This document shows, piece by piece, positions 4,587 to 50,849 of a DNA stretch of 64,000 nt. A program made the position numbers and the translations under genes. The notes under the pieces were generated by a model, which was given only the letters and a program-made list of their open reading frames with translations, was not told the origin of the DNA and did not search any database. Source of the stretch: an uncultured Phycisphaerae bacterium. Lineage in GTDB: Bacteria; Planctomycetota; Phycisphaerae; UBA1845; Fen-1342. The stretch spans positions 1 to 64,000 of the forward strand of contig CALGJV010000031.1 in the NCBI GenBank assembly GCA_937928595.1, written 5' to 3'. Numbering within the stretch: the stretch's first letter is position 1; every line of letters begins with the position of its first letter.

Positions 4587-5564
4587 ATGGACACATCGGT
4601 CGCGGTGCCGCTTCTGCTTGGCCTCGTGCTGCTGATCGGCGGGGGCGAGGTGCTGGTGCGCGGCGCGGTCGGGCTTGCCGAGCGGCTCGGGGTTTCACCG
4701 CTCCTGATCGGGCTGACGGTCGTGGCGCTCGGCACCTCCGCGCCGGAACTGGCCGTCAGCGTGCAGGCGGCGCTGGCGGGCTCGCCCGGCATCGCCATCG
4801 GCAACATCGTCGGGTCCAACATCGCCAACATCCTCGTCATTCTCGGGCTGTCGGCGCTGCTGTGCCCCATCGCCGTCGCGTCCCGCGCGCTCACGCGCGA
4901 CGGGCTGGTGATGCTGGCGACGGCGGCGGGCTATGCCGTGCTGGCAGCCGCCTGGGGGCTGGACCGCGTGGTGGGCGCGCTGCTGCTGGTCTCGGCGATC
5001 GTCTATCTGACCCTGACGGTGCGGGCGGAGCGGCTATCGACAACCGACCACGGCGCCGTGTTCGACAAGGCTGCCGCATTCGAGGAGGTCGGGCCGGGGC
5101 GGCTCCATCGGCTGCACGGGGTGCTGAAGCCACTGCTGTTCCTGGTCGCCGGCCTCGTGCTGATCGTCTTCGGCGGGCGGCTTCTGGTGCAGGGAGGGGT
5201 CGCCCTGGCGCAAGGCCTCGGCGTGTCGGAGGAGGTGATCGGCCTGACGATCATCGCCGTCGGCACCTCCCTGCCCGAACTGGTCACCTCGGTCATCGCC
5301 GCCATCCGTCGCCACGCCGACGTCGCGCTCGGCAACGTCATCGGCTCGAACATCCTGAACGTCCTGGTGATCGGCGGCGTGACCTCCACGATCGCGCCTG
5401 TCGTCGTGGTGCCGCAGATGCTGTGGCTCGACATGCCGGTGATGGTGGCGGTCACGCTGCTCTGCCTCGTCTTCGCGCGCAGCGGCTGGCGCATCGGGCG
5501 GCGGGAGGGCGGGTTGATGCTGGCGCTCTACGCGGCCTATGTCGGCGTTCTTCTGGCAATCTGA
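4587..5564 (+). CDS. Calcium/sodium antiporter, CaCA family
   Basis: A 325-residue polytopic membrane protein with the two inverted alpha repeats of the CaCA cation exchanger family. The first carries GTSAPELAVS followed by GNIVGSNIANI (about residues 49-85). The second carries GTSLPELVTS followed by GNVIGSNILNV in the C-terminal half. The acidic residues in the GTSxPE motifs bind the cation. Length and hydrophobic pattern match bacterial YrbG/CaxA-type exchangers, which use a Na+ or H+ gradient to expel Ca2+. The ATG at 4587 is the first methionine before the first helix. Ion specificity cannot be told from sequence alone. Confidence 0.9.
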   Translation: MDTSVAVPLLLGLVLLIGGGEVLVRGAVGLAERLGVSPLLIGLTVVALGTSAPELAVSVQAALAGSPGIAIGNIVGSNIANILVILGLSALLCPIAVASRALTRDGLVMLATAAGYAVLAAAWGLDRVVGALLLVSAIVYLTLTVRAERLSTTDHGAVFDKAAAFEEVGPGRLHRLHGVLKPLLFLVAGLVLIVFGGRLLVQGGVALAQGLGVSEEVIGLTIIAVGTSLPELVTSVIAAIRRHADVALGNVIGSNILNVLVIGGVTSTIAPVVVVPQMLWLDMPVMVAVTLLCLVFARSGWRIGRREGGLMLALYAAYVGVLLAI

Positions 5565-5696
5565 CCGGGCGCGCGGCCCATCCGCAACATCACCCGGCGG
5601 CTGTGGCGGGCCGGAGCCGGGATGCTGCCACCGCGCACATCCGGTTGACGTCCCCCGCTGCCGGCCCCAAGCCGCCCAGGACGACAGGACGCGACG

Positions 5697-6899
5697 ATGA
5701 AGCAGGACCCCGCCGACCGCTGGCTGACCGAGGGCGCGGCGAAGCACCGCGCCGGGGACCTTGGCGGCGCCGAGGCGCTGTACCGCCGCGTGCTGGCCCG
5801 CCGCCCGATGGATGCCAACGCGCTGAACCTGCTCGGGCTGATCGCCCGCGCGCGGGGCGATGCAGGACAGGCCGTGGCGCTCTCCGGCGAGGCGCTGGCG
5901 CGGCGCCCGGACAGCCCGGTGTTCCTCGCCTCCCATGGCGCCGCGCTCGCCGAGGCCGGCCGCCCTGCCGAGGCGCTGCGCTTCCTGGCCGAGGCCGCCC
6001 GGCTGCGCCCGGAGGACGCGGTGAACCTCCGCAACCTCGGCCAGGCGCTGTCGGACACCGGCCGCGCCGCCGAGGCGCTGCCGCCGCTGCGCCGCGCCGC
6101 TGCCCTCTCGCCCGGGGAGCCGGAGCCGCCGCTGGCGCTGGCCCATGCGCTGCGCCAGCTTGGCCAGCGTGAGGAGGCGGTGCGCGCCGCCCGCGCCGCG
6201 CTGGCCGCAGCAGGCGAACGGCCGATCGCCGCCGAGGCGCGCTTCCTGCTGGCCGCCCTCGGTGCCGAGTCCCCGCCCGACCGCGCACCCGCCACCTATG
6301 TGCGCGACGTGTTCGACCGCTACGCGCCCCGCTTCGACGCCGACCTGACGGGCACGCTCGGCTACGCGACGCCCGCTGCCCTGGCGGCGCTGCTGGAGCG
6401 GGCCGGCGCGGCGAAGGACGGGCGGGCGGAGGCGTTGGACCTCGGCTGCGGCACCGGCCTGTCGGGCGTGGCGCTCGCGCCCTTCGCGGCACGGATCGAG
6501 GGCGTGGACCTGTCGCCCCGCATGCTGGAGGCGGCGCGCGCCCGCGACCTGTATGCCGCTTTGTACGAGGCCGATCTGCTGGCTTTCCTGCCGGCCCGCG
6601 CCGCGTCGTTCGACCTCGTGTTCGCCGCCGATGTGCTGAACTACCTCGGCAACCTCGCGCCCGCCTTCGCCGGCGCGGCGGTCGCGCTGCGGCCGGGCGG
6701 GAGGCTGGCGTTCAGCGTGGAGACGGCGAAGGCCGACGCGGTCGAACTCGGCGAGGGCCTGCGCTACCGCCACCCGCCCGCGCATGTCGCGGCGCTGCTC
6801 GAGGCCGCGGGCTTCACCGTGGAAGCGCGGGAGGACGCGGTGCTGCGGCAGGAACGTGGCGCACCGGTGAAGGGCGTGCTGTTCGTCGCGCGGCGCTGA
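5697..6899 (+). CDS. TPR-repeat protein with SAM-dependent methyltransferase domain
   Basis: A 400-residue two-domain protein. Residues about 8-200 are alanine-rich tetratricopeptide repeats with the A-x-LxLGLIARARGD pattern. Residues from about 230 form a class I methyltransferase fold with the SAM-binding glycine motif LDLGCGTGLSG near 247 and the following acidic residue in GVDLSPRMLE. TPR-methyltransferase fusions of this kind are common in Alphaproteobacteria and usually unassigned. The substrate is unknown. The start is an ATG after the GACGACAGGACGCGACG spacer. It converges with the flhG-like gene, whose 3' end lies only six bases away. Confidence 0.85.
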   Translation: MKQDPADRWLTEGAAKHRAGDLGGAEALYRRVLARRPMDANALNLLGLIARARGDAGQAVALSGEALARRPDSPVFLASHGAALAEAGRPAEALRFLAEAARLRPEDAVNLRNLGQALSDTGRAAEALPPLRRAAALSPGEPEPPLALAHALRQLGQREEAVRAARAALAAAGERPIAAEARFLLAALGAESPPDRAPATYVRDVFDRYAPRFDADLTGTLGYATPAALAALLERAGAAKDGRAEALDLGCGTGLSGVALAPFAARIEGVDLSPRMLEAARARDLYAALYEADLLAFLPARAASFDLVFAADVLNYLGNLAPAFAGAAVALRPGGRLAFSVETAKADAVELGEGLRYRHPPAHVAALLEAAGFTVEAREDAVLRQERGAPVKGVLFVARR

Positions 6900-6905
6900 T
6901 CCCGC

Positions 6906-7706
6906 TCACGCCCCTGGCCGCCCCTTCGAGATCGCCTCCGCGATCCTGTCCACGTCATTGCCGGCGGTGCTGGACGGATGCCGCGTCAACAGCGGCGCCT
7001 GATTGCGGATCGCCTCCTTCACCTTCGGGTCGCGGCGGATGATGCCGGCCAGCGGCACCTCCCGCCGCAGGAAGCGCCGCGCCGCCTGCGCCAGCGTCTC
7101 GTAGGTGTGGCGGCCGGAGGACAGATCCTGCGCCTGGTTCACCACGATGGACACCGCCGATCCCGGCGCGTCCTGCTGGTGAAGCTTCAGCACCGCGTAG
7201 GCGTCGGTCAGGCTGGTCGGCTCGTCGGTCGCGACCACCAGAAGCAGGTCGGCGGAGGCCGCCATGCGGCGCGTGGCGGAATCGAGCCCCGCGCTCAGGT
7301 CCACGATCACGTCCTGCCAGCGCGTCGCGGCGTCCGGCAGCAGCGCCACCGCCGCATCCAGCGCCGCGGGGTCGAGCGCCGCCAGGCTGCCCGAGCCGGA
7401 GCGCCCGGCCAGGATGTCGAAGCCCGCGGTCGGCAGGTGCAGCGCCGCCTGCGGCAGCGCGACGCGCCCGGCCAGCACGGCGCCGATGTCGTGCGCCGGA
7501 GAGAGGCCGAGCTGCACGTCCACGTTCGCAAGCCCCAGATCCCCGTCCAGCAGCAGCAGCCGCCGCCCGCGCTTCGCCAGCGCCTGCGCCAGAGTGATCG
7601 CGAACCAGGTCTTGCCGACGCCACCCTTGCCCGAGGCGATGGCGATGATCCGCCCGCGGGACGGCGCGGAGAGCGGCAGCGGAAGCGCGGCGAGGGAGGC
7701 ACTCAT
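6906..7706 (-). CDS. flhG: MinD/ParA-like ATPase, FlhG family
   Basis: A 266-residue deviant Walker A ATPase. The P-loop SGKGGVGKTWF spans residues 25-35 and LLLDGDLGLANVDVQLGL (51-68) matches the MinD/FlhG switch region. FlhG controls flagellar number and position by acting on FlhF and the basal body. The gene overlaps the end of flhF by four bases and belongs to an flhA-flhF-flhG transcription unit, which supports the assignment over a chromosome-partition role. The N-terminal DQAxxLR helix that FlhG normally uses to stimulate FlhF GTPase is not visible before the P-loop, so regulation of FlhF may differ. Confidence 0.82.
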   Translation of the reverse strand: MSASLAALPLPLSAPSRGRIIAIASGKGGVGKTWFAITLAQALAKRGRRLLLLDGDLGLANVDVQLGLSPAHDIGAVLAGRVALPQAALHLPTAGFDILAGRSGSGSLAALDPAALDAAVALLPDAATRWQDVIVDLSAGLDSATRRMAASADLLLVVATDEPTSLTDAYAVLKLHQQDAPGSAVSIVVNQAQDLSSGRHTYETLAQAARRFLRREVPLAGIIRRDPKVKEAIRNQAPLLTRHPSSTAGNDVDRIAEAISKGRPGA

Positions 7707-41031: not shown

Positions 41032-41280
41032 ATGTTGGTGCTTTCAAGACAACGCGACGAGTCGATCATCATCGGCGACAACGTGCAGATCACGATCGTC
41101 GATATCCGGGGGGACAAAGTCCGGCTGGGCATCGAGGCGCCCGCCGAAATACCCGTGCATCGCAAGGAAGTCTTCGACGCCATTCAGCGCGAGAACCGCA
41201 AGGCCGCCGGCATGACCGCCGACGACCTGCCGGCCGGTCCGCCTGCCGCGCGGCCCGCCCGCGAATCCTCCGCTTCCTGA
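41032..41280 (+). CDS. csrA: Carbon storage regulator CsrA
   Basis: An 82-residue RNA-binding translational regulator. [20 protein letters not shown] and [20 protein letters not shown] are diagnostic, including the RNA-contact residues L4, R6 and R44-like positions. It represses flagellin translation by covering the SD and is antagonised by FliW. It lies directly between fliW and the first flagellin gene. A short low-complexity tail follows the conserved domain. Confidence 0.96.
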
Positions 41281-41358: not shown

Positions 41359-42786
41359 ATGGCTCGCATTAACACGAATGTCTCTGCGCTCACGGCCCGC
41401 CGCAACCTGAACTCGGCGTACCGCAGCCTCAACGGCACCCTCGAACACCTCAGTACCGGCCTGCGCATCAGCCGCGGCAAGGACGACCCAGCCGGCCTGA
41501 TCGTGTCCGAGCGGTTGCGGACCGAGATCGGCTCGGTCGGCCAGGCCCAGTCGAACACGCAGCGCGCCAAGCTGATCGTGTCCACGGCCGAAGGGGCCCT
41601 CGACGAGGTCGCCTCGCTGCTTAAGGACATCCAGCAGAAGATCGTCGAGGCCGCCAACCGCGGCGCGTTCTCCGACGACGAGCTGCGCGCCAACCAGCTC
41701 CAGATCGACTCGGCGATCGACAGCATCACCCGGATCGCGAACACGACCAGCTTCGCCGGGCGCAAGCTGCTCGACGGGTCGCTGGCGTACTCGACGAGCG
41801 GCGTGAATCTGGCGGCGGTGCGGTCGCTGCGGATCAACGCCACGCAGTTCGGTCAGCTGGCCAACATGCCGGTCGCCGTGAACGTGATGCGCGCGGCCTC
41901 GCAGGCCACGCTCACGTTCCCCTTCGCGGCGCTCGCCCCCGGCGCCAGCAACGTGACGATCGAGCTGGTCGGCCGCCGCGGCGTGACGACCATGACGTTC
42001 GCCAGCGGCACGCCGGCCTCGACGGTCGCCAAGGCGATCATCGCCGAAGCCGACGCCACCGGCATTTCGGCGACGCTGTCCGCGGGCGGCGCGGCCGGTT
42101 TCCGGCTGTACAGCCGCGGCTACGGCAGCAAGGAATTCGTGAAGATCCGCGTGCTCTCGCAGTCCGGCGACTTCCCGACCGCGGGCGGGACGAACGGGAA
42201 GGAGGACACGGGGTCGGACGCCCTGGCCACCATCAACGGCACGCTGGCCGGCGCCGACGGCAACAACTTGACGATCAAGAACTCCAGCATCGACCTGGAG
42301 CTGGCCGTCGCGCCCTCGACCTATCAGACGGCCTTCACGATCACCGGCGGCGGGGCGCTGTTCCAGGTCGGACCGCAGGTCAACACGAACCAGCAGGTCA
42401 ACCTGGCCATCGACGCCGTGACGGCTTCGCGGCTCGGCAACGACACCGTGGGCTACCTGGCGCAGGTCAAGACCGGACAGGCCCTCGCGCTCAGCACGCA
42501 CCGCTTCCACGAGGCCGGGCTGGTCGTGGAAGAGGCCATCCGGCAGATCTCGATGCTCCGCGGTCGGCTGGGCTCGTTCGAGCGCAACACGCTCGAGACG
42601 AACATGAACCAACTCGGGATCACGCAGGAAAACCTGACCGCGGCCGAGTCGGCCATCCGCGACGCGGACTTCGCCTACGAGACCTCGCGGCTGGCCCGCG
42701 ACCAGATCCTCGTCAACGCGGGCACGACCGTGCTCACGCTGGCGAACCAGACCACGCAGTCCGTCCTGCGGCTGCTGGGCGGCTGA
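41359..42786 (+). CDS. fliC: Flagellin (first copy)
   Basis: A 475-residue filament protein. The N-terminal D0/D1 is MARINTNVSALTARRNLNSA with LSTGLRISRGKDDPAGLI, and the C-terminal D1/D0 is SAIRDADFAYETSRLARDQI. The central part includes an IN-type element around VTIELVGRRGVTTMTFASGT. A strong SD, AAGGAGG, precedes the ATG and contains GGA, so CsrA control is possible. It follows csrA by 78 bases. A paralog follows about 360 bases later. Confidence 0.95.
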   Translation: MARINTNVSALTARRNLNSAYRSLNGTLEHLSTGLRISRGKDDPAGLIVSERLRTEIGSVGQAQSNTQRAKLIVSTAEGALDEVASLLKDIQQKIVEAANRGAFSDDELRANQLQIDSAIDSITRIANTTSFAGRKLLDGSLAYSTSGVNLAAVRSLRINATQFGQLANMPVAVNVMRAASQATLTFPFAALAPGASNVTIELVGRRGVTTMTFASGTPASTVAKAIIAEADATGISATLSAGGAAGFRLYSRGYGSKEFVKIRVLSQSGDFPTAGGTNGKEDTGSDALATINGTLAGADGNNLTIKNSSIDLELAVAPSTYQTAFTITGGGALFQVGPQVNTNQQVNLAIDAVTASRLGNDTVGYLAQVKTGQALALSTHRFHEAGLVVEEAIRQISMLRGRLGSFERNTLETNMNQLGITQENLTAAESAIRDADFAYETSRLARDQILVNAGTTVLTLANQTTQSVLRLLGG

Positions 42787-43143: not shown

Positions 43144-44565
43144 ATGAGTCGCATCAACACCAATGTCTCATCCATCATCGCGCAGCGCGTGCTGGGGACG
43201 CAGAATGCCCGACTGAACCAGTCCCTGCAACATCTGAGCACGGGCTTGCGCATCAACACCGGCAAGGACGACCCGGCCGGCCTGATCGCCTCGGAGACGA
43301 TGCGGGTCGAGATGCGGGCCATCCAGGCGGCCCAGACCAACATCTCCCGCGCGACGAACGTCGTGGCGGTGGCGGAGTCGGGTCTGGCGGAGGTGCACCG
43401 GCTGCTCAACGACCTCGAGGATCTGGTCGACCGCACGTCGAACGAGGCCGGCATCAGCGTCGAGGAGCGGAACGCGAACCAGCAGGAGATCGACCTGATT
43501 CTCTCGTCGATCAACCGCATCGCGAACTCGACAGAGCTCCAGGGGCGCAAGCTGCTGAGCGGGGAACTGGCCTTCACGACCTCGGCGGTCAACAGCACGC
43601 AGGTGACCGACCTGCGGATCAATGGGGCGCGCGTCCCCGAGCAGGGCACGCGCGTCGTCAACATCGAAGTGCTGGTCTCGGCCCAGCTCGCCCGGGTCAA
43701 CTACGCCGGCGGCGCGGTGGGCTCGGCCCAGACGATCGAGATCACCGGCAACCTGGGCACCGAGCGCATCACGCTGGCCAGCGGCGCCACGACGGCCAAC
43801 CTCGTGTCGGCCGTCAACATGTCCAAGCACCTGACGGGCGTGTCGGCCACGCGGATCAACGCGACGTCGGCGGTGTTCACCAGCACGGCCTACGGCTCCT
43901 CCCAGTACGTGAAGGTGCGTGTGCTGAGCGGCACGGCGTTCGCGGCCGGTCTGGGCGGCACCCTGGTCGAGGACAACGGCCAGGACGTGCGCGTCAACAT
44001 CAACGGCCAGGCCGTCACCGGCGACGGCTTGAGAGTCAGCGTCCGCAACTCGATCATCGATGCGGACATCACGCTGTCGCCGAGTTTCGCGACGCAACTG
44101 AGCACCGACTCGACCTTCGGCATCACGGGCGGCGGCGCGCGGTTTATGATTTCGCCCCGGCTCGACCTGAACTCGCTCGCGGCGATCGGCATCAGCTCGG
44201 TGACGACGGCGAACCTGGGCGACGCCAACGTCGGCTACCTCTACTCGCTCGGCACCGGCGAGGCCAACGCCATGAGCGAGAAGAACTTCTTCACCGCCCA
44301 GCGCATCGTCCGCCAGGCGCAGCAGCAGGTCGCCAACCTGCGCGGCCGCCTCGGGTCCTTCCAGAAGAACACGCTCGAAACGACGGCCGCCTCGCTGCGG
44401 ATCCAGTATGAGAACGTGGCGTCGGCCGAGAGCACGATCCGCGACACCGACTTCGCCGAGGAGACGAGCAACCTGACCCGCTCGCAGATCCTCGTCCAGT
44501 CGGCCACGAACGTGCTGCGGCTCGCGAATGCGGCGCCGCAGCAGGTCCTGGCGCTGCTCCAGTAG
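43144..44565 (+). CDS. fliC: Flagellin (second copy)
   Basis: A 473-residue flagellin paralogous to the first copy. The N-terminus has MSRINTNVSSIIAQRVLGTQ and LSTGLRINTGKDDPAGLIAS; the C-terminus has STIRDTDFAEETSNLTRSQI. The centre again holds an IN-type element (IEITGNLGTERITLASGATT). Both ends needed for filament packing are intact, so both genes are probably functional. A GGAGG SD precedes the ATG. A strong terminator hairpin follows. Confidence 0.95.
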   Translation: MSRINTNVSSIIAQRVLGTQNARLNQSLQHLSTGLRINTGKDDPAGLIASETMRVEMRAIQAAQTNISRATNVVAVAESGLAEVHRLLNDLEDLVDRTSNEAGISVEERNANQQEIDLILSSINRIANSTELQGRKLLSGELAFTTSAVNSTQVTDLRINGARVPEQGTRVVNIEVLVSAQLARVNYAGGAVGSAQTIEITGNLGTERITLASGATTANLVSAVNMSKHLTGVSATRINATSAVFTSTAYGSSQYVKVRVLSGTAFAAGLGGTLVEDNGQDVRVNINGQAVTGDGLRVSVRNSIIDADITLSPSFATQLSTDSTFGITGGGARFMISPRLDLNSLAAIGISSVTTANLGDANVGYLYSLGTGEANAMSEKNFFTAQRIVRQAQQQVANLRGRLGSFQKNTLETTAASLRIQYENVASAESTIRDTDFAEETSNLTRSQILVQSATNVLRLANAAPQQVLALLQ

Positions 44566-44667: not shown

Positions 44668-46116
44668 TCACAGCAGCGGCGTGAGCAGGCGGGCCGCGCC
44701 CTCGCCCAGCCGTTGCGGCAGCGGGCGGTTCCGCCACACGTCGCGCGCCCGCACCGGGCGCGCCCCCGCGCAGAACCGGTCGATCGTTGCGCTCAGCCCG
44801 CGGGCCGTGGGCGCGTCGTACAGCAGCGCGGTGATCTCGAAATTCAGGCGGAAGCTGCGCACATCCATGTTCGCCGAGCCGAGCATCGACCAGCGCTCGT
44901 CCACCGTGACCAGCTTCGAGTGCAGCACGCCGCCGCCGTACTCGTAGATCTCCACGCCGTGTTCCAGCAGCTCCGGGTAATAGCTGCGCCCGGCCCACAG
45001 CGCCAGCCGCGAATCGCTCCGCGACGGCAGCACGATGCGGACCTTCACCCCCCGGAAGCACGCGCTCGCCAGCGCCATCCGCACGGCCGGGTCCGGCACG
45101 AAATACGGCGTCGCCACGCGGATCGACTGCCGCGCCGCGGCGAAGGCGGCGAACACCACCTGCGCCAGCACGCTGACCGAGTGGTCCGGCCCGGACGGCA
45201 CAATCTGTACCAGCGACGCGCCCTGCCGCGCCGGCACCGGAAAGTACGCCTCCCGCTCCAGCGGCTCCCGCGTCGCCAAGTACCAGTCCTCCGCAAACGT
45301 CTCCTGGAGAAACGCCGCCGCCGGCCCGCTGACCCGCATGTGCGTGTCGAACCACGGGCTCAGCGCCCGCCGTCGGCCCCGGTACTCGTCCCCGATGTTC
45401 TGGCTCCCCATGAACGCCACCTGCCCGTCCACCACGGCGATCTTGCGGTGGTTCCGCAGATGAACGCTCGGTCGCCGACCCACCGCCAGCGGCCGCAGCG
45501 GCAGGAAGAACGCCACCCGCACGCCGGCCGCGCGCAGCGGCCGCAGAAACGACGGCCGCAGGCTCCAGCTCCCGACGGCGTCCAGCAGCAGCCGGCACTC
45601 CACCCCGGCCCGAGCCCGCTCGACCAGCAGCTCGGCGAAGTGCCGCCCGGTCTCGTCCGACCGCCAGATGTAGTACTCCAGGTGCACGTGGCGGCGGGCC
45701 GCGCGGATGGCGGCCTCGAGCGCCGCGTAGGTCTCGTTGGCCTCCTCGAGGATGGTCACCTCATTGCCCGCGGTCACGGGAACGCCGGCCAGACGCTGGC
45801 CGATCTGGGCGATCGGCGCCAGGTCGGGCGGGAGGTCGGCCGCGGCCGCCGCGGCGCCGCCGAGCCCCTGGCGCTCGGCCCAGTCCTGGAAACGGGCCAA
45901 CAGGTGCGCGACGCGGCGCCGTCGCCGGCTGGATTTGCGCCGCAGGCGGGCCGAGTCGAGCAGCCAGTACAGCACCAGCCCCACGCCGGGCAGCAGGAGC
46001 AGCGCCAAGATCCACGCCACCATGGCGGCGGGCTCCTTGCGTCGCTGAAGCAGAAACCCGATCGTGACCAGCGCGAGGACGTAGTTGGCGACGCTGGCGG
46101 CCGCCCAGAAGGTCAT
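44668..46116 (-). CDS. cls: Cardiolipin synthase, phospholipase D family
   Basis: A 482-residue membrane enzyme that condenses phosphatidylglycerol into cardiolipin. Two N-terminal transmembrane helices (about 5-22 and 33-50) are followed by two PLD catalytic motifs: HLRNHRKIAVVDGQVAFMGS (about residue 218) and VLHSKLVTVDERWSMLGSAN (about residue 397), each with HxKx4D. Length is normal. It is the last gene of a five-gene minus-strand operon headed by an ECF sigma factor, which suggests induction under envelope stress. Confidence 0.93.
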   Translation of the reverse strand: MTFWAAASVANYVLALVTIGFLLQRRKEPAAMVAWILALLLLPGVGLVLYWLLDSARLRRKSSRRRRRVAHLLARFQDWAERQGLGGAAAAAADLPPDLAPIAQIGQRLAGVPVTAGNEVTILEEANETYAALEAAIRAARRHVHLEYYIWRSDETGRHFAELLVERARAGVECRLLLDAVGSWSLRPSFLRPLRAAGVRVAFFLPLRPLAVGRRPSVHLRNHRKIAVVDGQVAFMGSQNIGDEYRGRRRALSPWFDTHMRVSGPAAAFLQETFAEDWYLATREPLEREAYFPVPARQGASLVQIVPSGPDHSVSVLAQVVFAAFAAARQSIRVATPYFVPDPAVRMALASACFRGVKVRIVLPSRSDSRLALWAGRSYYPELLEHGVEIYEYGGGVLHSKLVTVDERWSMLGSANMDVRSFRLNFEITALLYDAPTARGLSATIDRFCAGARPVRARDVWRNRPLPQRLGEGAARLLTPLL

Positions 46117-46147
46117 GCGGGCAGTGTCGACCGCGCCGCCGCGGGCG

Positions 46148-46639
46148 TCAACGCGCACGCGTGAACGGGGTCGGGTCCGCGGGCAGCACCAGCGCTCCGC
46201 GACCCCCGCGCCAGCCGCGCCCGGCGCGCTCGTGCGAGCCGTCCTCCTCGACGCGCGCAAGGCGGCTTCTCCCGAGCCACACGGCGCCGCTCACCACGGC
46301 CGCCACGGCGATCAGCGTCACGAGGCCCAGGACCCACTCGCGACCGCGGCTCACTCCGGTCGGCGCCCGGCGGCCGGCCCGGACGCACACGCCCGTCCAC
46401 GTGCACACCCAGCCCCAGTGCAGCGCGACGTGCAGGAGGAGGAGCGCTGCGAGCGCAACGGCCAGCCAGAAATGCACATCGCCCCAGTCATGCCGCGTGA
46501 GCCCCCAGAGCGACAGGCCGTGACCGCCGCGGCTGCCGGGCGGCAGGACGTACCGCAGCCACAGGCCCGTCACGATCATGGCCAGCATGACCAGGAGCGC
46601 GAGCGCGTCGACGATGTAGTTGAGAATGTGCGTGCGCAT
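46148..46639 (-). CDS. Membrane protein with four helices, DUF4405-like
   Basis: A 163-residue integral membrane protein with three or four helices. Conserved-looking histidines lie in HDWGDVHFWLAVALAALLLL and HVALHWGWVCTW, which resemble the DUF4405 / cytochrome-b-like membrane family. Haem binding is possible but not shown. The ATG at 46639 has GGAG five bases upstream; a GTG two codons earlier overlaps the SD. It lies 31 bases from cls and 28 from the CnrX-like gene. Confidence 0.7.
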   Translation of the reverse strand: MRTHILNYIVDALALLVMLAMIVTGLWLRYVLPPGSRGGHGLSLWGLTRHDWGDVHFWLAVALAALLLLHVALHWGWVCTWTGVCVRAGRRAPTGVSRGREWVLGLVTLIAVAAVVSGAVWLGRSRLARVEEDGSHERAGRGWRGGRGALVLPADPTPFTRAR

Positions 46640-46667
46640 GGCCACTCCTGCTCCGGGGGCACCGCGT

Positions 46668-47249
46668 CTACGGTTGCCGGCCGGGGCCGCCGCCGCGTCG
46701 CCCGCCGCCGCGTCCGCCCGGACCGCGATCCGCGGGCGGGCCGCCCGCGCCGCGTCCGTCGCCCGGATCGAGCCCGTCGGCCGCGCCGTGTCGCCAGCGG
46801 AAGCCGCGGGCCTCGCGCACGCCGGTCGCGAAGTGGCCCAGCAGCCGTGTCCGCTGCGCCGGCGTCAGGTGCGGTCGCAGACTCACCAGGTACTCGGCGA
46901 CGCGCCGCTCCACGGCCTGGTGGGCGGCGAGCACCGCGTCAACCTGCGCCAGCAGCTCGGTGTCGGTCGTGGTCCCGGATTCGAAGGCGGCGGCCAGGCG
47001 TGACCGCGATGCCTCCAGTTCGGCCTCGAGGGCCGCGCGGTCGCGCTCGAAGTCGGCCTCCAACGCGCGGACGGCCTCCCGTTGCGCGGGCGTGAGTCGC
47101 AGCCAGTCGAGCAGCCGCGTGGGACGCCCCGCGGCTCCGGTCGGCGCGGGGGTGGCCGGCGGCTGCTGCCACGCGTATGTCACCCAATACGAGCCGGCGG
47201 CGCACGCCAGCGCCAGGGCCGCCAGCAGAATCGTGCGCGGCGTCTTCAT
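46668..47249 (-). CDS. Periplasmic Spy/CnrX-like protein
   Basis: A 193-residue protein with an N-terminal signal anchor (about 7-25) and a helical hairpin domain containing LDWLRLTPAQREAVRALEAD and LRPHLTPAQRTRLLGHFATG. The two LTPAQ motifs are the mark of the Spy/CpxP/CnrX fold, used as chaperones or metal sensors. A glycine-rich tail follows. It overlaps the anti-sigma gene stop by four bases, which recalls the CnrYXH sigma-antisigma-sensor arrangement. The ligand is unknown. Confidence 0.75.
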   Translation of the reverse strand: MKTPRTILLAALALACAAGSYWVTYAWQQPPATPAPTGAAGRPTRLLDWLRLTPAQREAVRALEADFERDRAALEAELEASRSRLAAAFESGTTTDTELLAQVDAVLAAHQAVERRVAEYLVSLRPHLTPAQRTRLLGHFATGVREARGFRWRHGAADGLDPGDGRGAGGPPADRGPGGRGGGRRGGGPGRQP

Positions 47250-47716
47250 GAGGCGTCCTCCGTCCCGCCGCCGTCCGCGTCGAGGTCCGACAGCGCGGCG
47301 TACAGGCCGACCGGCGACATCGTCACCAGCAGCTCCACGTCGGGTCCGGCCGTCGCGAGGTCCGGTCCGACCGGGGCGGGTGCCGGGCCGGCGCCGCGCA
47401 GCGTCCATTCCGCCGCGCCGTACCCGGTGCCGATGCCGATTAGCACCGCGGCCGCGACGCGTACGGGCGTACGGCTCCAGATTCGCAACGGTTCTGCCGG
47501 TCGTTCGTTCAACCGGCGGACGACGGCCGCCGCCAGGTCACCCCCGGGGGTCCGCTCGCGGTCGGCGCCCAACACGGACCACAACCCCCGCTGGGCCCGG
47601 ACGCGGGCGGCGCAATCGGGGCAGGCGGCCGCGTGGGCCTCGAGGGCGGCCGCGTGCGCGGGCGGCAGCTCGCCGCTCACCAGGCGGATGACCTCGGTCG
47701 GTGTCAGGTGCGACAT
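47246..47716 (-). CDS. Zinc-finger (ZAS-type) anti-sigma factor
   Basis: A 156-residue membrane anti-sigma factor. The N-terminal motif H28-x3-C32-x2-C35 in HAAACPDCAARV is the ZAS zinc site that binds the partner sigma factor. One transmembrane helix lies about residues 85-104 and a short periplasmic tail follows. It lies 17 bases downstream of the ECF sigma gene, the normal partner order. Confidence 0.85.
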   Translation of the reverse strand: MSHLTPTEVIRLVSGELPPAHAAALEAHAAACPDCAARVRAQRGLWSVLGADRERTPGGDLAAAVVRRLNERPAEPLRIWSRTPVRVAAAVLIGIGTGYGAAEWTLRGAGPAPAPVGPDLATAGPDVELLVTMSPVGLYAALSDLDADGGGTEDAS

Positions 47717-47733
47717 GGCTGCTCCACGTGTAG

Positions 47734-48327
47734 TTAACGCCGCGGCCCCGGGGGTTCCGGCGGCGGGTCCATCAGATCCGCGAGGCGTTCGCGCAGGGTC
47801 GCGTAAGCCCGCACGAGGCATGATTCAACGGCTGAAACGCTCCAGCCGGTCACGGTAGCGATGTCCTTATGGGACAGCTCGTGGTAGCGGTGCAGGATCA
47901 CCGCGAGCCGCTGTCGATCGGGCAGGGCCGCCACGGCGGCGCGGACCCGCTGGGTCCGCTCGTCGGCTTCCATCGCCGTCGCGGCGTCGGGAACGGTCGC
48001 TGCACCGTCGTGCTCCTGTTCCCGACGGCGTGCCCGGGCGAGCCCGCGGCGTCGATCCCAGCACAGGTTCGCCACCAGCCGGTACAACCACGTCGTGAAA
48101 CGCGCTTCGGGTTGGTACATCGCCGCCGACCGGTAGAGCTTCACGAACGCGTCCTGTGCCACGTCCTCGGCAAGGTCGGCGCGGCCGAGAAAACGCTGCG
48201 CCAGCCGGATGACGCGCTCCTGATGCCGCTGCACGATCGGCGTGAGCGCGGCGGTGTCGCCGGCCGCGAGCCGCCGCATCAGCTCTTCGTCGGACTCATC
48301 GTCGTGGGACGGTGCGATCGGGACCAT
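47734..48327 (-). CDS. ECF-family RNA polymerase sigma factor
   Basis: A 197-residue sigma-70 family factor with regions 2 and 4 only. Region 2 includes FLGRADLAEDVAQDAFVKLY and FTTWLYRLVANLCWDRRR; region 4 includes LPDRQRLAVILHRYHELSHK and the helix-turn-helix VTGWSVSAVESCLVRAYATL. It heads the operon sigma, anti-sigma, CnrX-like, DUF4405-like, cls and probably transcribes it. The ATG follows GGCGAG; longer in-frame starts exist but encode shadow sequence. Confidence 0.9.
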   Translation of the reverse strand: MVPIAPSHDDESDEELMRRLAAGDTAALTPIVQRHQERVIRLAQRFLGRADLAEDVAQDAFVKLYRSAAMYQPEARFTTWLYRLVANLCWDRRRGLARARRREQEHDGAATVPDAATAMEADERTQRVRAAVAALPDRQRLAVILHRYHELSHKDIATVTGWSVSAVESCLVRAYATLRERLADLMDPPPEPPGPRR

Positions 48328-48396
48328 CTCGCCAGCGCTCGCGCGGCGCCGCCCGGAAATCGCCGCAGGCGGGCGGCCCTTGGCGGCGTTGCATGG

Positions 48397-48432
48397 GCGG
48401 TCGCGGGCATTGTGACGGGCTCCCGCGACTGC
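48397..48432. promoter_or_regulatory. Eleven-base-pair inverted repeat between the ECF operon and a divergent lipoprotein
   Basis: GCGGTCGCGGG (48397-48407) pairs with CCCGCGACTGC (48422-48432) with one wobble and a 14-base loop. It lies 70-105 bases upstream of the sigma gene and 70-110 bases upstream of the divergent lipoprotein gene, so it could be a shared operator or a leader hairpin. Confidence 0.45.
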
Positions 48433-48504: not shown

Positions 48505-48807
48505 ATGCGAGGCGTCTTGAGCGTGCTGGGTGTCGCGGCGCTGCTTGCGCTGGCCACGGGGTGCGATCTGAACAACGTGCCGGCCGAGGCCAAGGCCCTG
48601 CTCGCCACGGCCAAGGGGCCGGTGCCCGAGCTGGCCGGCGGCGATCAGCTCCAGATCCAGGAGCGCCTGCGGCTGCGCGACGAGTCCTGCACCAACGAGG
48701 GGGACATGGTGCGGAATCGCTACAGCCACGCGTACGGCGGGAGCAACGGGAATGGGTCGGGCGGCGGGAGCGGCGGCGGGCAGGGCCCGGGCGGCTCCGG
48801 CCGATAA
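48505..48807 (+). CDS. Small lipoprotein with glycine-rich tail
   Basis: A 100-residue putative lipoprotein with signal MRGVLSVLGVAALLALATGC and lipobox ALATGC. A helical middle (PAEAKALLATAKGPVPELAG) leads to DESCTNEGDMVRNRYSHAYG and a glycine-serine tail. No family is recognised. It is transcribed away from the ECF operon across a region with an inverted repeat, so joint control is possible but not shown. Confidence 0.6.
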   Translation: MRGVLSVLGVAALLALATGCDLNNVPAEAKALLATAKGPVPELAGGDQLQIQERLRLRDESCTNEGDMVRNRYSHAYGGSNGNGSGGGSGGGQGPGGSGR

Positions 48808-48945: not shown

Positions 48946-50520
48946 TCAGTCCGCCGTCTGGAGCCGCACCGCCTGAAGCGCCTCCCGAGCCCGCGTCACG
49001 CTTTCGTGCAAGCGCTGGGCCGAGTCTGCATCGGCTGAAGGATTGATGTCGGGGGCACCGGCCGCCCACGAGCCGGCGACCGTTTCGTCTCCGGCGAGCG
49101 CGTGCGCTTCGCACGCCACCGGAACGGCCGGGGCGGTGTCGGGCGCCGGGTCCGGCTCGGTCGCGTCGAACGACACGGGCAGCGCCTCTCCGGTGCCGGG
49201 CTCATCGCGCAGGATCTCGTGCACGAGGCTTGCCAGCGGACGCGCCCGGCGCCGCAAGGTGGCCTGGCGCATGGCGAGGGTCCGTTCGCGGACGGTCAGC
49301 TCGTTCAGACGCCGTGCGATGGCCCGCGCCTCGTGGGACAGTGCGGTGAGCCGCTGCTCGGCGAGGCCGGTCTGCCGCAAGGCTTCGGCGTGCTGCTCGG
49401 CCACCTTCATGGCCTGCGCGTCGAGCGCTGCCCGCCGGGCGGCGGTTTCGGCGCGGCGGCGTCGGAGGGCGCGCACACGCCGAACGAGTGCGGCGCGCTG
49501 TGTCGCGAGCCGCGCGGCGCGTTGCTCCAGCGCGGCCGCGCGGCCGCGGAGGTCGGCGGCCGCGGCGCTGAGTTCGGCCTGTTGGCGCTCCAGCGCGGCG
49601 GAGCGCTGGGCATGCTCCTCGGCCTGACGCTGGACCCGGTTGACGCGGTGCTCCAGGTCGGCTTCCTGCGCGTCGAGACGGGCGGCGCGTTCCTGGAGCT
49701 CCGTCTCCCGCTCGTCGAGCTGGGCCGTCCGCGCGGCGATTTCTTCGCTCTGCGCGACCAGTTCCACGGAGCGGCGGTCCAGATCGCGGCTGCGGTCGCG
49801 CAGCTCGTCGGCCAGGGCGTCGAGGGTCCGGCCGCGTTCTGCGAGGTCCGCCAGGCGGGCCGCGAGGTCGCGTTCGCGGTCGTCCAGTTCGGCGGCGCGG
49901 GCGTTGTTCCGATCCGTCTGACTCTGCAAGTCGGCGCCGCGCTGTTGCAACTCGCTCGCTTCGGCGGCGAGGCGGGTCGCGCGGGTCTCGAGCTCGAGCT
50001 GCCGCTCGTCCAGCCGGGCCATCCGGAAGGCGATCTCCTCGCTGCGCGCGACGAGCTCGGCGGAGCGCTGGTCCATTTCGCGGCTGCGGTTCCGCAGCTC
50101 ATCGGTCAGGGCGTCCAGTACGCGGCTGCGTTCGTCGATGTCGGCCGTGCGGGCGATGACGTCGCCCTCACGGCTCTCCAACGTGGACCAGCGCGCTTCG
50201 AGTTCGGCGTTGCGGGCGGCGAGTTCCTGGCAGGCCTGGTTGAGCTCGGCGGCGACGGCTTCGCTCTGGGCGATACGCTCCGCCAGGTCGGCTTCGCGGG
50301 CATCGAGCTCGGCGGCCCGTCGCTCCAGGGCCGCGTGCCGCGGCCCCAGTTCGTCCCGCAGACGCCGCAGGGCTTCCGCCCGCTCGGAGAGCTCGCGGCA
50401 CAACCGCCGCCACCGCTCGGTCCGCGTGTGCGGCACGCTGTCGGGCTGCGGGTCGCCGCGCGCTTCGAGCACGCCCTGGCCGTTGCGAGGACTCGTCGCC
50501 TTCCGCGAGCTGGCTGGCAT
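48946..50520 (-). CDS. Long coiled-coil protein with internal repeats
   Basis: A 524-residue, almost wholly alpha-helical protein rich in E, R, A, Q and L with heptad-like periodicity. It has no signal or transmembrane segment, so it is probably cytoplasmic. Two related units of about 98 residues can be aligned, for example DELRNRSREMDQRSAELVAR and DELRDRSRDLDRRSVELVAQ, followed by SEEIAFRMARLDER and SEEIAARTAQLDER. No domain is recognised. Similar proteins act as cytoskeletal or scaffold elements, which is inference only. The C-terminus (about 60 residues) is less regular. Confidence 0.7.
   Translation of the reverse strand: MPASSRKATSPRNGQGVLEARGDPQPDSVPHTRTERWRRLCRELSERAEALRRLRDELGPRHAALERRAAELDAREADLAERIAQSEAVAAELNQACQELAARNAELEARWSTLESREGDVIARTADIDERSRVLDALTDELRNRSREMDQRSAELVARSEEIAFRMARLDERQLELETRATRLAAEASELQQRGADLQSQTDRNNARAAELDDRERDLAARLADLAERGRTLDALADELRDRSRDLDRRSVELVAQSEEIAARTAQLDERETELQERAARLDAQEADLEHRVNRVQRQAEEHAQRSAALERQQAELSAAAADLRGRAAALEQRAARLATQRAALVRRVRALRRRRAETAARRAALDAQAMKVAEQHAEALRQTGLAEQRLTALSHEARAIARRLNELTVRERTLAMRQATLRRRARPLASLVHEILRDEPGTGEALPVSFDATEPDPAPDTAPAVPVACEAHALAGDETVAGSWAAGAPDINPSADADSAQRLHESVTRAREALQAVRLQTAD
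49640..50113 (-). repeat. Two 294-base in-frame repeats within the coiled-coil gene
   Basis: The string CGCAGCTC followed by similar sequence occurs at 49799 and again at 50093, exactly 294 bases (98 codons) apart, and similarity extends over about 150-180 bases in each copy. The protein copies align without gaps over about 50 residues, showing tandem duplication inside the gene. Confidence 0.65.
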
Positions 50521-50849
50521 GGCACACCTCGTCGAGGGCACATCGCCGCCGCCGTTCACAGCGCCGGCAGCGCCTCACGGGGTGCATCGTCCGAAAGCAG
50601 TGGCCTGTTAACCTGCGCGACCCGGCCAATTTCGGGGCGGACCGATACACGGGCGTGGCCGGCCGATAACGTCCGATTTCCGCCGCCGCGGCCGCCCGGC
50701 GTGCGGACCGGGGGCGGGTTGCGGCACGCGTCGGCGCGTCCGAACGCGGCGGTCCGACCCGCCGCGGGGGCGGCCGGGAATGGGTGTAACGTCCGAGAAT
50801 GCGGGGGTACGATGCGGGGCCGGGCGCGACCGGCCTGGTGGAGATGGCG
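50521..50849. other. Intergenic region between coiled-coil and hydrolase genes
   Basis: About 330 bases between divergent genes, with no supported gene, tRNA or clear promoter hexamers. An alternative start of the hydrolase (50799) would shorten it. Confidence 0.4.

Follow-up and report, generated by a model that had tools for sequence, protein, structure and literature searches.

The locus analyzed here raises the question of whether five closely spaced genes form a single stress operon with cardiolipin synthesis as an output, or whether a smaller regulatory circuit lies next to a lipid gene. The reading that we favor, with moderate confidence, is a three-part transmembrane ECF circuit that would feed back on its own inhibitor and sensor and control a small envelope regulon.

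The five-gene array and the position of cls

Within the 64-kb window (i.e., the whole stretch of DNA that was analyzed), the minus strand encodes, in order, an ECF sigma factor (47734-48327, 197 residues from an ATG start; Pfam Sigma70_r2, 2e-16, and r4_2, 1e-14), a membrane anti-sigma factor of the ZAS (zf-HC2) type (47246-47716; zf-HC2, 6e-6), a Spy/CnrX-like sensor (46668-47249; Metal_resist, 1e-15, and LTXXQ, 4e-7), a DUF4405 b-type cytochrome-like membrane protein (46148-46639; Pfam DUF4405, 1e-15), and a cardiolipin synthase (cls; 44668-46116; PLDc_2, 1e-41, and TIGR04265). The intergenic distances are 17, -4, 28, and 31 nt, the negative value being an ATGA overlap of the anti-sigma and sensor genes. 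An earlier note on this DNA had described five genes in this order with gaps of less than 32 bases, and the minus-strand coordinates agree. It had placed the sigma start at 48432, a position that has no in-frame start codon; the ATG at 48327 is the likely start, and the region above it contains a divergent promoter-like site. Absent from the note were a divergent gene for a small lipoprotein (48505-48807, plus strand, lipobox ...ALATGC-D) and two conserved promoter-like dyads. The spacing is operon-like, as had been proposed, but a single five-gene transcription unit is doubtful because one dyad sits in the gap between the sigma and anti-sigma genes. Elsewhere in the window, a csrA-like gene (41032-41280) and two flagellin-like genes (41359-42786 and 43144-44565), all on the plus strand, are convergent with cls, and a repetitive coiled-coil protein of 537 residues with weak RNase_Y_N similarity is encoded at 48946-50559 (minus strand).

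Searches with the Spy-like and anti-sigma proteins recovered the sigma, anti-sigma, and Spy-like genes in identical order in 19 relatives within the order, a few of these loci being cut by contig ends. An alignment scan of named genomes with the sigma factor yielded 80 loci, in 47 of which anti-sigma and Spy-like genes come after sigma; these are mostly from Phycisphaerae, with some from Desulfobacterota, Ignavibacteria, and Nitrospirae. As a module, the three genes are conserved in Phycisphaerae and in a small number of further phyla. The survey of gene order suggested earlier thus returned a divided result, with the first three genes conserved in order and the order including cls not conserved.

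The cls product scored 386.9 bits against the NCBIfam model TIGR04265 (bac_cardiolipin; cut-off 290) and carries two HKD motifs (HRKIAVVD and HSKLVTVD), which identify it as a cardiolipin synthase; the gene is intact and is the sole copy found in this genome. Among about 100 other loci examined, some of them truncated, none had cls beside the module. No dyad precedes cls in the window, and the best match before cls in relatives was weak (13.6 in L129, a genome that yielded no sensor). In three relatives, cls lies 57-86 nt behind a 374-codon gene that we take, by its sequence, to encode citrate synthase, and in another genome (G013) the module has DUF4405 nearby while cls is on a different contig. 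The simplest reading is that the adjacency of cls is lineage-specific, possibly with read-through from DUF4405.

Compatible with the three-part circuit is a recent recruitment, in which cls would have moved behind DUF4405 in this lineage alone and read-through would link an envelope redox response to cardiolipin. The distance of 31 nt on the same strand, the lack of any terminator-like site seen before cls in the window, the single copy, and the citrate synthase neighbor in three relatives are all consistent with such a move; adjacency by itself may be accidental, and we regard recruitment as a serious but minority possibility. The stronger proposal of the earlier note, that the five genes are a membrane-lipid stress operon whose regulated outputs include cardiolipin synthesis, draws on the tight spacing of all five genes and shares with recruitment the missing terminator and the intact sole copy. 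It is unlikely, as it found no support in either a conserved cls linkage or a shared promoter, and the arrangement of cls behind citrate synthase in three relatives also argues against cls as part of the response.

A conserved dyad and the genes that it faces

The dyad, CCGCAGG-N16/17-CGTTYAA, was found by aligning upstream regions. At all 19 genome loci it occupies the sigma/anti-sigma gap, 16-20 nt 5' of the anti-sigma ATG and with a Shine-Dalgarno sequence in between, and this distance holds whatever the length of the gap. The gap dyad reached a score of at least 15 in 41 of the 47 named loci. Because these loci come partly from the same genomes as the 19 relatives, counts were also made for held-out loci (i.e., those not used for building the matrix); at the same threshold the dyad was present in 28/34 of them, compared to 1/33 relatives without a Spy-like gene (Fisher, 7e-12), the single exception being a locus that is truncated after sigma (L276). 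The copy in the window, CCGCCGG-N17-CGTTAAC (47733-47763, minus strand), overlaps the sigma stop codon and ends 16 nt before the anti-sigma ATG; it is a weak, degenerate variant (PWM score 12.4, per-placement p 5e-6) in the expected place, and is the predicted sigma-dependent promoter of the anti-sigma gene. No dyad in the sense direction was found 5' of sigma at score 15 in any of the 47 named loci. Among the loci compared, the dyad is confined to sigma modules of this kind and keeps its placement, from which we infer that it is a sigma-dependent promoter. A genome-wide search with the strict pattern returned mostly chance matches within genes and little excess outside the module locus, so the regulon is probably small.

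The second dyad, CCGCAGG-N17-CGTTGCA (48363-48393, plus strand), lies 5' of sigma and faces away from it toward the divergent exported gene, here the small lipoprotein whose ORF begins 111 nt 3' of the dyad. This copy is conserved where a divergent gene is present: 19 loci with both motif and divergent gene and 11 with no motif and a co-directional gene were concordant, and 8 loci were discordant. The link is imperfect, as five of the loci without the motif carry a reverse-strand upstream gene; three of the discordant loci (L287, L288, and L306) nevertheless have a short divergent ORF behind the dyad. The divergent genes behind the dyad encode GCD lipoproteins (at the equivalent place in L101, L102, L104, L111, and L116), DUF2202 proteins, DUF5666-DUF2202 pairs, and small exported proteins rich in R/G or K/R. 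Signal peptides and family membership are shared among these dyad-associated targets, and the lipoprotein of the window is a predicted target of the sigma factor, the second dyad being the predicted sigma-dependent promoter of its gene.

Read in reverse, with TTGAACG as the -35 element, the dyad would instead specify sigma autoregulation and an antisense transcript running from the gap across the sigma gene. TTGAAC is similar to common ECF -35 elements, and the upstream copy would then drive sigma. This reading is nonetheless very unlikely, given that the upstream copy tracks the divergent gene in the 30 concordant loci (19 + 11) against 8 exceptions, that the gap copy keeps its distance to the anti-sigma ATG as the gap varies, and that copies in trans face DUF4405, lipoprotein, and DUF5666 genes; in addition, the CGTCTAA variant of some relatives is similar to known ECF -10 elements. 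An antisense (excludon) reading of the gap motif was dropped on the strength of the orientation and distance analysis.

Sigma factor, anti-sigma factor, and CnrX-like sensor

The sigma factor of the window is 46-60% identical to its orthologues and has Sigma70_r2 and r4_2 with no further sigma region, the composition of an ECF sigma factor. Its partner has putative zinc ligands at H3, H28, C32, and C35, the last three being invariant in the alignment, and conforms to the ZAS pattern H/C-x24-H-x3-C-x2-C with one transmembrane segment, as judged by eye on the sequence; it is thus of the zf-HC2/ZAS type and not of the CnrY class, which has no zinc motif. An S-x-TGL-like motif is conserved near the periplasmic end of the aligned anti-sigma proteins.

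The Spy/CnrX-like protein is predicted to consist of an N-terminal transmembrane anchor, a helical hairpin with two LTxxQ motifs, and an R/G-rich tail. A profile of the family matched NccX/CnrX in the PDB (E 8e-6), and the AlphaFold (AF2) model, with pLDDT >90 in the core, was nearest to CnrX and then to CpxP, ZraP, and Spy (E about 1e-3, probability 1.0). The earlier suggestion that the sigma and anti-sigma genes are accompanied by a CnrX-like sensor is borne out by these matches, and a CnrX-fold sensor adjoining the two genes is the arrangement of CnrYXH-type systems. Many relatives have a tandem pair of Spy/CnrX-like matches 3' of the anti-sigma gene (L281, L282, L284-L286, L291, L293, L295, L298-L300, L302, L305, L309, and L312), where the window has one. 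A true Ni/Co sensor of the CnrYXH type governing metal efflux is very unlikely despite the sequence and fold match to CnrX/NccX and the acidic residue usually found at the E63-equivalent position of the 19 Spy-like sequences, since the remaining Ni/Co ligands are poorly conserved in those sequences (H42 and H46 in 0/19, H119 in 5/19, and M123 in 2/19), the anti-sigma factor is of the zinc ZAS type, and no RND efflux pump was found among the genes read beside the module in the window.

We favor instead the three-part circuit, which is known CnrYXH-type signaling in a new version, with a ZAS anti-sigma factor and a dyad before the inhibitor. CnrYXH of Cupriavidus metallidurans likewise encodes together an ECF sigma factor, a membrane anti-sigma factor, and a membrane-anchored periplasmic sensor of the CnrX fold. 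The systems differ in that the module described here has a zinc ZAS protein in place of CnrY, does not conserve the Ni/Co ligands, is ordered sigma-anti-sigma-sensor with a predicted promoter in the sigma/anti-sigma gap, and has DUF4405, DUF2202, and lipoproteins as predicted outputs rather than the CnrCBA pump. The helical hairpin and two LTxxQ motifs are shared with Spy, CpxP, and ZraP, but the sensor of the window adjoins ECF sigma and anti-sigma genes, not a two-component system, and has a predicted transmembrane anchor. A zf-HC2 anti-sigma factor with HxxxCxxC is common to ECF sigma/ZAS pairs of the RsiW and ChrR type; the module differs in having a CnrX-like protein as its third component, along with a predicted promoter that is conserved before anti-sigma but not before sigma, where none was found. 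An operon of Azospirillum brasilense that is annotated as rpoE8, a hypothetical gene, and a "periplasmic heavy metal sensor" (PMC12826043) is by annotation the same kind of trio, compared here by description only.

Candidate outputs and the proposed circuit

The histidine-rich membrane protein of the earlier note, DUF4405, does appear to belong with the system. The same dyad directly precedes DUF4405 genes in six other genomes or loci (G030, G045, L282, L285, L304, and L309), and for this reason DUF4405 is probably a genuine output of the sigma circuit. In the window protein, H56 and H70 are invariant across 19 sequences, with H50 and H74 also conserved in its own subfamily; the domain together with conserved transmembrane histidines is that of a b-type cytochrome. 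Heme b binding has been demonstrated for a member of the DUF4405 family, which is related to the ferrosome protein FezC (PMC11334425), and by likeness to that member the window protein is b-type cytochrome-like and may bind heme b. Comparison of a structural model of the DUF4405 protein with the PDB gave no informative match. The domain and the invariant histidine pair are common to the window protein and these cytochromes; unlike in the ferrosome and DUF4405 systems, no apbE (flavinylation) or fez genes were recognized among the genes read beside the module, and ECF control is predicted. In L304 (2797-3818), a DUF4405 gene lies between sigma and anti-sigma, immediately behind the gap promoter. 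The tails of CnrX-like sensors and DUF4405 proteins have an R/G-rich motif (GRGWRGGRG-like) in common (L109, L282, L285, and the C-terminus of the window DUF4405).

DUF2202 (ferritin-like) proteins were found in 5/61 genomes, all of them module-positive (p 8e-5); that of the window's own genome is at a contig edge (G000:C44:18-431). Together, the DUF4405 and DUF2202 associations point to periplasmic metal/redox homeostasis, with the signal left unnamed. A literature search, with most subscription-journal papers out of reach, found no paper on DUF2202 and none describing the dyad promoter.

In the circuit that we propose, the zinc-binding membrane anti-sigma factor would hold the ECF sigma factor, and the membrane-anchored periplasmic sensor probably contacts the conserved periplasmic tail of the anti-sigma factor. 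An envelope metal or redox signal would then cause the sensor to free sigma. As the dyad precedes the anti-sigma/sensor genes and exported genes and none points toward sigma, freed sigma most likely raises its own inhibitor and sensor, a negative feedback, and also drives a small regulon of envelope genes that would serve iron/heme redox homeostasis. DUF4405 of the window would ride directly in the anti-sigma/sensor transcript, and cls beyond it may receive read-through without being a conserved member. Such a circuit probably serves envelope metal/redox homeostasis. More tentatively still than the recruitment of cls taken by itself, the module could represent a widespread, undescribed ECF family that unites a zinc anti-sigma factor and a CnrX-like sensor, feeds back on inhibitor and sensor only, and controls a periplasmic iron/heme redox regulon (DUF4405, DUF2202, DUF5666, and lipoproteins), the sole cls having been recruited in this lineage.

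The conserved and interesting part of the locus is the CnrX-like ECF circuit with its predicted inhibitor promoter and its candidate DUF4405/DUF2202/lipoprotein regulon, and not the combination of sigma with cls, which is not conserved. Its wiring, with a predicted promoter before the inhibitor and none found before sigma, is unlike the usual self-activating ECF loop. The dyad supplies the predicted promoter of an orthogonal ECF sigma factor and makes unnamed genes of uncultured Phycisphaerae a testable regulon, and two poorly understood groups, the DUF4405 cytochromes and the DUF2202 ferritin-like proteins, are tied to one sensory circuit.

Several further features were noted around the dyad in relatives. 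Divergent exported proteins of different families (L280, L308, L309, and L101) have in common an RxxDG[ST]C-like motif, of which the window lipoprotein (48505-48807) has the version DESC. At 5541-7158 of the Ignavibacteria loci L350/L352, two dyads stand before PAP2-like and DUF5666-like genes, with anti-sigma and Spy genes beyond, which is the same logic in another phylum. A TPR protein and a polyferredoxin are encoded close to the module in L107 (5396-7443), and a TPR protein in L188 (1622-2497) has the dyad 91 nt upstream; together these genes suggest a further electron-transfer target.
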